From IMG/VR virus record IMGVR_UViG_3300034108_000283, positions 51,897 through 115,896 of that record: 64,000 nt of DNA, one strand, 5' to 3'. Below are positions 18,112 through 21,280 of the stretch, in pieces (the stretch's first letter is position 1; each line of letters starts with the position of its first letter). A model generated the notes under the pieces. That model made no database searches. It worked only from the letters and a program-made list of their open reading frames with translations, and had not been told where the DNA came from. The position numbers were made by a program, and so were the translations under genes. The stretch is from a virus.

Positions 18112-18378
18112 ATGGCCACAGAATCACTACCAATAGCAATTTTTATAGCAAGTACCATTTTTGCTATATTTGGATACTTTTTAAAAATGATCCATGGAGA
18201 TGTCAGAAAAAATACAGAAGAACTTGGAAAGTTAAAAGGTAAAATAGAACTAGTACAACAAGAAACACAGATAAAATATCAAGCATTGCAAGAGCTTACT
18301 CAGCTTGAGATAAAAAACTTAGCAAAGAATGTAGGTGAATTATCAGATGCTGTTAAGTTGTTTATATCTAACAAATAA
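18112..18378 (+). CDS. Membrane-anchored coiled-coil protein, possible holin partner, 88 aa
   Basis: One N-terminal hydrophobic helix (residues 7-25) followed by a 60-residue charged coiled coil (NTEELGKLKGKIELVQQ...). This topology is common in holin-associated proteins. It opens the lysis region and is 2 nt from the next membrane-protein gene. Confidence 0.65.
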   Translation: MATESLPIAIFIASTIFAIFGYFLKMIHGDVRKNTEELGKLKGKIELVQQETQIKYQALQELTQLEIKNLAKNVGELSDAVKLFISNK

Positions 18379-18380
18379 AT

Positions 18381-18632
18381 ATGAAAGAATTGAAAGGAAG
18401 ATGGAAAGCCAAAACACCTAAGTTTTGGAAAAGAGTACAACAGATTGCAATAGTAGCCGGAACAATAGCAGGTGTTATTATTGCAGCTCCAGTGGCTTTA
18501 CCAGCAGCCATTATAACAGTAGCTGGATATGTAGCAACAGCAGGAACAGTAGCTGCTACATTATCACAATTAACAGTAGAAGATGCTAAAGAACTAGAAG
18601 ATGTTGACAATTCAACAGACAGTTTGAAATAG
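18381..18632 (+). CDS. Small two-helix membrane protein, holin candidate, 83 aa
   Basis: A basic N-terminus (MKELKGRWKAKTPKFWKR) precedes two Ala/Gly/Val-rich hydrophobic helices (about residues 20-38 and 42-62) and an acidic tail. The size, hairpin topology and location next to lysozyme genes fit a holin, although there are other candidates in the same cluster. Confidence 0.6.
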   Translation: MKELKGRWKAKTPKFWKRVQQIAIVAGTIAGVIIAAPVALPAAIITVAGYVATAGTVAATLSQLTVEDAKELEDVDNSTDSLK

Positions 18633-18666: not shown

Positions 18667-18969
18667 ATGGCAAAGAAAAAAGAAGTTAATGTTGAGTTAG
18701 AAGTAACAACAAAAACTAAAAGAGCTTATGTTAAGAAAGATAACAAAAACTTAGATGTAGTTATTGATACACCTAAAGTTGATGTAGAAGTACACGCTAC
18801 AGAAACAGAACAACATGTTAAAATTGATACTAAGAAATTAGATATTGAAATTACTAAAACTGCAGAAGGTTCTAAAGTTACAATAGATGCTGATAACAAA
18901 ATACTAGAAAAAGTAGGAACTACATTTAGCTCTTGGATACTTAAACGTCTAGCTAAAAAAAATAGTTAG
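18667..18969 (+). CDS. Charged repeat protein, 100 aa
   Basis: A Lys/Glu/Asp/Val-rich protein with two related beta segments (KNLDVVIDTPKVDVEV near residue 28 and KKLDIEITKTAEGSKVTID near residue 58) and an amphipathic basic C-terminal helix (SSWILKRLAKKN) that could contact membrane. No family recognised. It lies between the holin candidate and the tandem-PAS gene. Confidence 0.65.
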   Translation: MAKKKEVNVELEVTTKTKRAYVKKDNKNLDVVIDTPKVDVEVHATETEQHVKIDTKKLDIEITKTAEGSKVTIDADNKILEKVGTTFSSWILKRLAKKNS

Positions 18970-18994
18970 TAATAAGGTTTAGTAATAACCTGCA

Positions 18995-20110
18995 ATGAAA
19001 AATTTACCAAAAGAAGAGTTATTAAGCAGGCTTGAAGCAATTAATAGAAGTAACGCTATTATTTACTTTGACCTTGGTGGCACCATCACAGGTGTTAATG
19101 ACATTTTTTTGGAAGCAATGGGTTACGGTAAAGGTAATCATGAAGACATTATAGGTAAGCACCATAGCATTTTTGTATGTGATGATTACTCAAGATCACT
19201 TGAGTATGAAAAGTTTTGGGATATCTTAAGAAGTGGTAAGCATTACACTGGAGAGTTTGAAAGAAGAAAAAAAGATGGAAGTCTTATAAATCTTCAAGCA
19301 ACTTATAATCCTATTTTAAATGAAGATGGTAAGATTACCAAGATAATGAAAATTGCTACTGACGTTAGTGTAATTGTCAATAGTAAGAAACAGATAGATG
19401 CAATCAATAGAAGCACTGCTCTGATTAATTTTAACATAGATGGTTTTATAACAGATGTAAATTCTATATTCTTAGAAACCATGGGTTATAAGGGCAATGA
19501 AAAAGCCAAAGTCATTGGAAAACATCACAGTGTTTTTGTAAGCTATGAGTATTCTAAGTCTGATGAATATGCTAAGTTCTGGGAAAGCTTGAGAAAAGGT
19601 AAGTACTTTGATGGAATCTTTGAAAGAAAAAAAGTAGATGGTTCTACTGTTTATTTGCAAGCATCTTACAACCCTGTATTTGACAGCAAAGGAAATATTA
19701 CAGATGTAGTTAAAATTGCAACTGATGTTACTGAAGCTGTAACTAACAAGGCAAAAATAGATGATCTTACAAAAAACTTACAAATAGAACTTGAGAATTC
19801 TCAAAAACTGAAAAACTCAATAGAGATAGAAAAGGATGCAGCTTTAAATGACTTAGATGTAATGATGAAAAAAAGTCAAAGTGAGCTGATAAAAATTATT
19901 GTCAAAGTTGCATTGTCTGTTATAGTTGGGGTTGGAGTTGTGACAACAGTATTATACTGGATGGCTATTATAACAAATCAAGACACACAGATTATTGGTT
20001 CAACATGGAGTAACATGTTTAGTGTATTATTAACAAATGCCTTCTCTATAGTTGGTACAATCATGGGTATCAAGTATGCTACTCAGGAAGGCGGTAAAGA
20101 AAAAAAATAA
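18995..20110 (+). CDS. Tandem-PAS membrane protein with holin-like tail, 371 aa
   Basis: Two PAS sensor domains (about residues 15-125 and 134-246) of the chemoreceptor type: each has GKHHS[IV]FV, [SD]EY..FW..L..G, G.FER.K.DGS, LQA[TS]YNP and KIATDV in order. A coiled coil (250-300) leads to two hydrophobic helices (301-325 and 339-360) and a short basic tail. There is no kinase, cyclase or methyl-accepting domain, so the output is the membrane part. It lies between membrane-protein genes and lysozyme, so a sensor-gated holin or antiholin is a reasonable inference; a signalling decoy is an alternative. Confidence 0.75.
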   Translation: MKNLPKEELLSRLEAINRSNAIIYFDLGGTITGVNDIFLEAMGYGKGNHEDIIGKHHSIFVCDDYSRSLEYEKFWDILRSGKHYTGEFERRKKDGSLINLQATYNPILNEDGKITKIMKIATDVSVIVNSKKQIDAINRSTALINFNIDGFITDVNSIFLETMGYKGNEKAKVIGKHHSVFVSYEYSKSDEYAKFWESLRKGKYFDGIFERKKVDGSTVYLQASYNPVFDSKGNITDVVKIATDVTEAVTNKAKIDDLTKNLQIELENSQKLKNSIEIEKDAALNDLDVMMKKSQSELIKIIVKVALSVIVGVGVVTTVLYWMAIITNQDTQIIGSTWSNMFSVLLTNAFSIVGTIMGIKYATQEGGKEKK

Positions 20111-20114
20111 AATT

Positions 20115-20390
20115 ATGAAAAAGATTTTTAAAGAATTAGTATCAGATGCTAATGAGATAAATGAGCAAAGCTTTGTTGGAGTAGTAGCATTTTTTGCTAT
20201 GGTATTTATTTTAATAGTTGATGTAGTTACAGGTATTTGGGGTAAAGAACTGGTCATAAAAGAATTTATCTTTGATGGCTTTATGATCATTACTCTTGGA
20301 GCCTTTGGAATTACTACAGCAGGTAAAATTATGTCAAACAAAAAAAACAATCAAAATGAAAATAACCAAGACGGGGAAAGCGGGAATTGA
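20115..20390 (+). CDS. Probable holin, 91 aa
   Basis: I start at the ATG at 20115 (MKKIFKELVSDANE...); an upstream TTG overlaps the previous gene. Two hydrophobic helices (about residues 22-42 and 50-71) joined by a short charged loop and followed by a polar Asn/Gln-rich tail match the class II holin layout. The gene overlaps the start of the lysozyme gene by 35 nt, the strongest contextual evidence that this is the main holin. Confidence 0.65.
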   Translation: MKKIFKELVSDANEINEQSFVGVVAFFAMVFILIVDVVTGIWGKELVIKEFIFDGFMIITLGAFGITTAGKIMSNKKNNQNENNQDGESGN

Positions 20391-20814
20391 GATGATTAAA
20401 GCTTTTGAAGGGTTTAGAGGAACTCCTTACAAATGTTCTGCAGGTGTCCCTACAATAGGATACGGAGCTACTTTTTATCCAGGTGGTAAAAAGGTAACAA
20501 TGACAGATGCAGCTATAACAGAAGAACAAGCTGTTGAACTGTTAGCAAACATGCTTGTAAGTTTTGAAAAATATGTAGATAGCTATTGTGTAGATACTAT
20601 CACACAAAATCAGTTTGATGCATTAGTTTCATTTGCTTACAACTTAGGACCAGCAAATTTAAAATCTTCTACATTACTTAAAAAAGTAAATGCAAATCCT
20701 AATGATGAGTCAATCAAATTAGAATTCCTAAAGTGGGTTAAAGCTGGAGGTAAAACATTAAAAGGTCTTGTAAGAAGAAGAGAGGCTGAAGCAGAATTAT
20801 ACTTTAAAAAATAG
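20356..20814 (+). CDS. Endolysin, GH24 (T4-type) lysozyme, 152 aa
   Basis: I start at MKITKTGKAGIEM; an upstream ATG lies within the holin gene. The catalytic arrangement is E18-x8-C27-x5-T33 (FEGFRGTPYKCSAGVPTIGYG), the E-[D/C]-T triad of phage lysozymes with Cys in place of Asp. The helical C-terminal lobe contains QFDALVSFAYNLG and GLVRRREAEAELY, also typical. It cleaves the beta-1,4 bond of peptidoglycan after holin action. No signal or SAR segment is visible. Confidence 0.9.
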   Translation: MKITKTGKAGIEMIKAFEGFRGTPYKCSAGVPTIGYGATFYPGGKKVTMTDAAITEEQAVELLANMLVSFEKYVDSYCVDTITQNQFDALVSFAYNLGPANLKSSTLLKKVNANPNDESIKLEFLKWVKAGGKTLKGLVRRREAEAELYFKK

Positions 20815-20818
20815 AACC

Positions 20819-21280
20819 ATGCAATTAAGTAAAAATTTATCATTAGCAGAAGTAACAAGAAGTGAAACTGCAAAGAGAAAAGGAATTAGCAATATGCCAA
20901 CTCCTGAGCACATTGAGAACTTTAAAAAGTTAGCTGAGAATGTCTTTCAGCCAATCCGTGAGCACTTTGGTGTTCCTATTCATATTTCATCTGGGTACAG
21001 AAGCAAAGCTTTGAATACTGCTGTTGGAGGAAGTTTGTCCTCACAACATTGTCAAGGTGAAGCAATTGATATTGATATGGATGGTACATCAATAACCAAT
21101 GCTCAAATCTTTAACTTTATCAAAGACAATTTGAATTTTGATCAAATGATTTGGGAATTTGGTACAGACACTAATCCTGACTGGGTTCATGTATCTTATG
21201 AATCTACAGGTAAACAACGTAAACAAATTTTAAAAGCTATTAAACAGGGTGGGAAAACAATTTATACACCTTATAAATAA
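20819..21280 (+). CDS. Peptidase M15-type peptidoglycan endopeptidase, 153 aa
   Basis: Zinc ligands fit the M15 pattern: SSGYRSKALN (57-66), SQHCQGEAIDID with H77 and D84, and WVHVSY with H124. Members cleave D-Ala or L-Ala/D-Glu bonds in cell-wall peptides. It starts 4 nt after the lysozyme stop, so the phage produces a glycosidase and a peptidase together. No export signal is seen. Confidence 0.85.
   Translation: MQLSKNLSLAEVTRSETAKRKGISNMPTPEHIENFKKLAENVFQPIREHFGVPIHISSGYRSKALNTAVGGSLSSQHCQGEAIDIDMDGTSITNAQIFNFIKDNLNFDQMIWEFGTDTNPDWVHVSYESTGKQRKQILKAIKQGGKTIYTPYK

Follow-up and report, generated by a model that had tools for sequence, protein, structure and literature searches.

The 371-aa protein described here is encoded in a 64,000-nucleotide stretch of viral DNA (the window), which is part of a 115,896-base IMG/VR virus contig and whose terminase is closest, at 23–25% identity, to those of crAss-like phages and Flavobacterium psychrophilum phages. 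Its open reading frame, which starts with ATG and agrees in its coordinates with the original prediction, lies in a lysis cassette (Table 1). The gene had been placed directly upstream of lysis genes, and this placement stands: hol91, the gene of a 91-aa protein, starts 4 bases past its stop codon, and is followed by those of a T4-type lysozyme and an M15 peptidase.

Table 1. The PAS gene, its parts, and the neighbouring genes of the lysis cassette (positions in the window).
Feature	Position	Strand	Evidence or remarks
88-aa protein, N-terminal TM + coiled coil	18112..18378	+	resembles a spanin or XhlA by look only; found repeatedly in related cassettes
83-aa hydrophobic protein, also a holin candidate	18381..18632	+	phrog_2879 holin only at E=0.65
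100-aa charged protein	18667..18969	+	recurrent upstream neighbour
PAS-PAS-coiled coil-2TM protein, 371 aa	18995..20110	+	ORF calling, Pfam/NCBIfam profiles, AF2
PAS domain 1, residues 15–125	19037..19369	+	W75 (F-alpha Trp), H57, R90 at the NifL/Aer/MmoS FAD-Asn position
PAS domain 2, residues 136–246	19400..19732	+	W196, H178, R211; 55% identity to PAS 1
Coiled-coil signalling helix, residues 247–300	19733..19894	+	continuous with TM1 in the AF2 model
TM1, residues 301–326	19895..19972	+	hydropathy; variable, pN/pS 0.21
Invariant segment TQIIGSTWSNMFSVLLTNAFSIVGTIMGIKYAT, residues 331–363, short outer loop + TM2	19985..20083	+	exact in 121/121 distinct proteins; pN/pS 0.008
hol91, 91 aa with two TM helices, putative holin or antiholin	20115..20390	+	no family match; ATG at 20115
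T4-type lysozyme, endolysin	20359..20814	+	PF00959 4.3e-43; without N-terminal hydrophobic segment
M15 peptidase, second endolysin	20819..21280	+	PF08291 2.5e-21

The protein belongs to the PAS superfamily both by profiles above the curated cut-off and by fold. PF08447 matches two stretches of it (8.6e-25, 87.3 bits against a cut-off of 25.6 in Pfam), and further PAS profiles also match (PF13426, 1.6e-19; PF00989, 1.3e-13; TIGR00229, 8.7e-27). The AF2 model, which was obtained from a 33-sequence alignment and has an overall pLDDT of 75.8 (about 60–70 in the membrane part and below 50 at the C-terminal end), contains two PAS folds, an unbroken helix from residue 246 to 326 in which the coiled coil continues as TM1, and another helix at residues 332–367. 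The hydropathy maxima lie at residues 298–326 and 337–360. Pfam and NCBIfam scans detect no signalling or kinase domain C-terminal to the PAS domains, which sets the protein apart from MCPs and histidine kinases. The architecture originally proposed—tandem PAS domains at residues of about 15–125 and 134–246, a coiled coil, and two hydrophobic helices, with no enzymatic output—is confirmed by the profiles, the model, and hydropathy, both segments matching PAS models. The N-terminus should be cytoplasmic, given the soluble PAS domains and the lack of a signal peptide, and we infer an N-in/C-in hairpin for the two membrane helices, which agrees with the lysines found before TM1 and after TM2.

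Among solved structures, the sequence relatives of the PAS domains are MmoS (3ewk), NifL (2gj3), and Aer (8dik), all of them FAD redox sensors (PMC10468136), and MmoS 3ewk is the top Foldseek match of the AF2 model. The main FAD determinant of PAS domains is a Trp on the F-alpha helix, joined by a His in clusters 9 and 14—that is, an FAD-contacting His in two of the three FAD clusters—and by an Asn in clusters 4 and 14 (PMC10468136). Both PAS domains of the phage protein have the F-alpha Trp (W75/W196) and a His at the FAD-contacting position (H57/H178), and these residues are invariant in 79 of 79 homologues; W75 aligns to the Trp of MmoS and NifL, and H57 to the His of MmoS. Arg (R90/R211) occupies the position of the FAD-contacting Asn of NifL and Aer, a residue that is listed for clusters 4 and 14 only, and the combination of Trp and His fits the cluster tied to chemoreceptors. 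BdlA and McpS, whose tandem PAS domains have the same layout, are also predicted FAD binders (PMC8694187). No proximal His of the FixL or DosP type is present on the F-alpha helices (residues 69–79 and 190–200), where the invariant, FAD-type Trp is found, and haem sensing is ruled out on these residues. The most likely function predicted for the domains is sensing of the redox or respiratory state via FAD; of the inputs first envisaged (redox, oxygen, haem, or a small molecule), redox is favoured, while haem has to be dropped.

Constraint on the protein peaks within its C-terminal tail, in the segment that contains TM2. Residues 331–363 are identical in all 58 homologues found with a query restricted to the PAS part, from which the tail had been left out, excluding search bias as the origin of this invariance. 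In this segment pS is about 0.59, among the highest values in the gene, and pN/pS falls to 0.008, compared to 0.11–0.21 for the PAS domains, the coiled coil, and TM1. This combination of high synonymous divergence and nearly absent amino acid change indicates that the constraint acts on the protein rather than on the DNA, and most strongly on TM2; an RNA element or a recombination arm is excluded by the same synonymous divergence. TM2 bears small residues at every fourth position (S343, T347, S351, and T355), together with a GxxxG motif (G354xxxG358). Such a helix points to a specific membrane target: judging from its conservation, TM2 would either pack with its own copies or bind something identical in all hosts. 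An absolutely invariant transmembrane helix is unlike known holins, whose sequences differ greatly, and would be unusual for a plain holin.

At least 121 distinct homologous proteins, holding two PAS domains (about 370 aa) or one (about 250 aa), occur in IMG/VR virus contigs of many backgrounds, and the relatives in IMG/VR amount to at least 177 with the whole protein as query and at least 460 with the tail. The succession of PAS, coiled coil, and tail is kept in every full-length homologue sampled, always with the same tail; with hundreds of homologues in existence and this layout throughout the sample, the architecture is far more than chance. The PAS domains have cellular relatives at 38–43% identity in histidine kinases of Bacteroidota and in chemoreceptors, the closest being multi-PAS histidine kinases (41–43%). 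For the tail, no relatives were found in 50,697 phage records, and only chance-level matches in 400 cellular genomes from the family of a Winogradskyella MAG. One cellular tail match (L162) was discarded as antisense to a longer ORF, and the PAS matches in three "phage" records (L083–L085) correspond to bacterial-type chemoreceptors in unverified scaffolds. Because the PAS domains have cellular relatives and the tail is absent above chance from the cells searched, the sensor looks borrowed from cellular signalling, while the tail appears to be of viral origin.

The genetic neighbourhood of the family was analysed by predicting genes around 128 distinct homologous genes, of which the 75 with at least 2.5 kb of flank on both sides were used for neighbour counts. 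A lysis gene lies within three genes in 71 of these 75 homologues, and an endolysin in 66; as a rough control, the same classifier was applied to a different sensor family of phages, where it gives 12 of 80. Four unrelated classes are represented among the cassette endolysins: PF00959 lysozyme, PF08291 M15 peptidase, GH19, and a PG-binding protein that matches phrog_3000. Between cassettes, neither the endolysins nor the small membrane partners are homologous. The PAS gene is found either before or after the endolysin across many unrelated backgrounds, which contain glycosyltransferase, ribonucleotide reductase, or DnaB-like genes, or a crAss-like tail and IHF region (gene names assigned mostly by reading the sequences). 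Four of the 75 homologues have no recognised lysis gene nearby: L237 and L242 sit among recombination and replication genes of T4-like type, L118 near a DNA ligase and a thymidylate synthase, and L039 near genes of no assigned function. Relatives that combine a location away from lysis genes with a fused signalling output, the pattern opposite to the original prediction, did not appear, since none of the homologues sampled has an enzymatic or fused signalling output. The association with lysis is strong but correlative, and the interpretation first suggested is supported in part, without the haem input.

Neither hol91 nor the tail of the PAS protein matches a holin family in Pfam, PHROGs, or NCBIfam—the best match of the tail being phrog_1544, a family of unknown function, at E=0.057—so that the former designation of the 91-aa protein as the likely holin was a guess, and the proposed search of the tail against holin families gave no match. 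In the cultured Flavobacterium phage immuto, the hol91 family adjoins a GH19 endolysin and a protein annotated as a holin, and it lies within two genes of the PAS gene in at least 38 of the 75 cassettes by a conservative classifier. Holin families vary among the cassettes, with the PF05105 type in some and none in the window's own contig. The PAS protein itself has two TM helices and lies in a lysis cassette, but it is 371 aa long and carries a sensor. The gene of the 88-aa TM and coiled-coil protein recurs as a separate DNA block, with 75–78% identity at 18166–18356 between the window and loci L011, L019, L025, and L047. In two loci (L023:1045–1521 and L025:4506–5021), proteins of 158–171 aa are encoded upstream of the 88-aa TM protein and the PAS protein. 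They have an apparent lipobox close to their N-terminus and a TM at the C-terminal end, and look like unimolecular spanins, with no significant Pfam or PHROG match.

Comparison of the window with loci from unrelated phages by blastn reveals about 80–87% DNA identity that starts at 18991–18996 and ends at 20088–20122, the ORF ends being 18995 and 20110. Several loci (L042, L043, L054, and L060) have no similarity to the window beyond the PAS ORF, and others only weaker similarity, in endolysins or other neighbours (blastn). As the DNA similarity starts and stops at the ends of the ORF, the PAS gene is, by this comparison, transferred by itself, with boundaries that match those of the ORF. The identity of hol91 can fall to 14% between cassettes with PAS proteins at least 90% identical, and the identities of both proteins correlate weakly (Mantel r=0.31); therefore, the PAS protein seems not to need a co-adapted small partner.

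Other families were observed in the same or comparable places. A second sensor-like phage family combines an N-terminal TM helix with a GAF fold (AF2 pLDDT 66.9; Foldseek top matches are GAF domains), with members at L049:3520–4140, L052:8138–8740, and in L257–L336, and 520 viral relatives; its gene directly adjoins the PAS gene in L042, L049, and L052, and in L269 it is followed by genes that look like peptidases, the second being M23 at E=2.5e-5, below the cut-off. A 67-aa two-TM family, im81 ("YneF" in Flavobacterium phage immuto; L166:7304–7507; L170–L187), sits where other phages carry the PAS gene, in cassettes of the order hol91-GH19-holin-im81 or hol91-im81-?-c5. Homology of the tail to hol91 was rejected (hhalign probability 0.5%), and homology to im81 is suggestive by eye, but it is not claimed (HMM E 0.3–10; BLASTP 0.002 for a single pair). 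In Cellulophaga phages, the lengths of phi18:3 gp090 (L168:39102–39620), which has an N-terminal TM and lies two genes before the annotated endolysin of this cultured phage, and phi19:1 gp108 (L169:6203–6925) fit two PAS-like-fold matches in BFVD (172 aa, E 2e-3; 240 aa, E 8e-5) that were equated with these genes by length only. Both were set aside as PAS relatives, with no Pfam PAS match.

The reading to which we give an even chance of being correct is that of a phage-encoded flavin-type redox/energy sensor, wired directly to the inner membrane, with which phages would regulate the timing of lysis in an exchangeable manner. Its one or two PAS domains, located in the cytoplasm, would bind FAD and thereby report on redox or respiration, and the PAS state would travel down the coiled coil, which forms one helix with TM1; in the AF2 model, this continuous helix would offer a direct path for the signal into the membrane. 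The signal is expected to alter how the two helices of the N-in/C-in hairpin pack, and TM2, the one with the fixed sequence, would then either permeabilise the membrane with its own copies or act on a partner common to all hosts. As an outcome, lysis might be advanced or held back, whichever holin and endolysin the phage encodes. Holin-based lysis is linked to the proton motive force, with energy poisons triggering holins and breaking lysis inhibition (PMC7182436), and input from a redox sensor of the same cassette would be logical. A pinholin role of the tail is weakened by the adjacent lysozyme, which shows no N-terminal SAR segment in its sequence: without a hydrophobic N-terminus, this enzyme would not be released by a pure pinholin. 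The tail may instead act with, or on, a large-hole holin, for which hol91 and the 83-aa protein at 18381–18632 are candidates.

Three other explanations have been considered. A cargo gene that lies in the lysis region without a lysis role, functioning for instance in superinfection exclusion or as a modulator of host respiration through a conserved host membrane protein, would account for a gene that moves alone like a moron, for an invariant TM2 suggestive of a conserved target, and for the four homologues outside lysis regions; however, it should not favour lysis cassettes in 95% of cases over many unrelated backgrounds, on either side of the endolysin, and it is considered unlikely. The protein could also be a dedicated antiholin or co-holin of hol91 or of the holin of the phage, which it would bind through its TM helices and set free upon a signal, as RI/RIII do with the T holin. 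Antiholins are often encoded beside holins (PMC7182436), and both the four-base spacing and the frequency of hol91 nearby agree with this arrangement. Nevertheless, the divergence of hol91 beside nearly unchanged PAS proteins argues against a co-adapted antiholin for it, the cassettes differ in their holin families, and an invariant helix is ill-suited to a fast-varying partner, which makes this explanation improbable. Very improbable is a signalling decoy, whose PAS domains would pair with the related PAS histidine kinases of the host and damp its signalling, the tail being merely an anchor: while the closest cellular relatives are indeed such kinases, a mere anchor would not be expected to show the strongest constraint in the protein, and the location in lysis cassettes would be left unexplained.

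A stronger form of the redox-regulator reading, in which the family is a mobile sensor–effector lysis module of a categorically new kind, is put forward as a doubtful possibility. There, a flavin redox PAS would directly gate the hairpin, the invariant TM2 would attack a host-conserved partner or self-assemble, and unrelated phage lineages would couple lysis to host respiration via one interchangeable gene.

Several known systems resemble parts of this protein. With the soluble tandem-PAS chemoreceptors AerC, BdlA, and McpS, and the FAD PAS proteins Aer, NifL, and MmoS, it shares the PAS subfamily motifs GKHH..F, EY..FW, and LQA.YNP, the tandem layout, the Trp and His signature of FAD, and a coiled-coil output; contrary to them, it has no MCP or kinase output, ends in a two-helix membrane tail, and is carried by phages in lysis cassettes. 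Class II holins (two TM helices, N-in/C-in), exemplified by the S21 pinholin, have in common with it the predicted two-helix hairpin and the small-xxx-small pattern of TM2, but not the large N-terminal sensor, the invariance of TM2, or a partner lysozyme without SAR, and no family match connects them. The lysis inhibition proteins T, RI, and RIII of T4, and TeaA and ArrA of ICP1, share with it the proposed role of a lysis-cassette protein through which a condition influences the timing of lysis; however, T4 RI/RIII and ICP1 ArrA sense superinfection (PMC11413866, PMC7182436), and these systems do so via small antiholins, whereas here a cytoplasmic PAS sensor is fused to the membrane part. VqmA of vibriophage VP882 is another phage-encoded PAS sensor tied to a lysis decision, which works by transcription (PMC8284805); unlike this DNA-binding transcription factor sensing an autoinducer, the 371-aa protein holds no DNA-binding domain. 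No PAS-holin or phage PAS sensor in a lysis cassette was found described in the open-licence literature, in agreement with the earlier statement that no described phage sensor-holin of this design was known.

Environmental input to lysis timing has so far been mainly superinfection, as in T4 and ICP1, or quorum signals acting via transcription, as in VP882. The present analysis suggests that phages of Flavobacterium-type bacteria check the energy state of the host when deciding to burst the cell. If this is true, many Bacteroidota phages would read that state before lysis by means of a widespread single-gene redox sensor, and host physiology, oxygen, and phage turnover would become directly linkable and testable.
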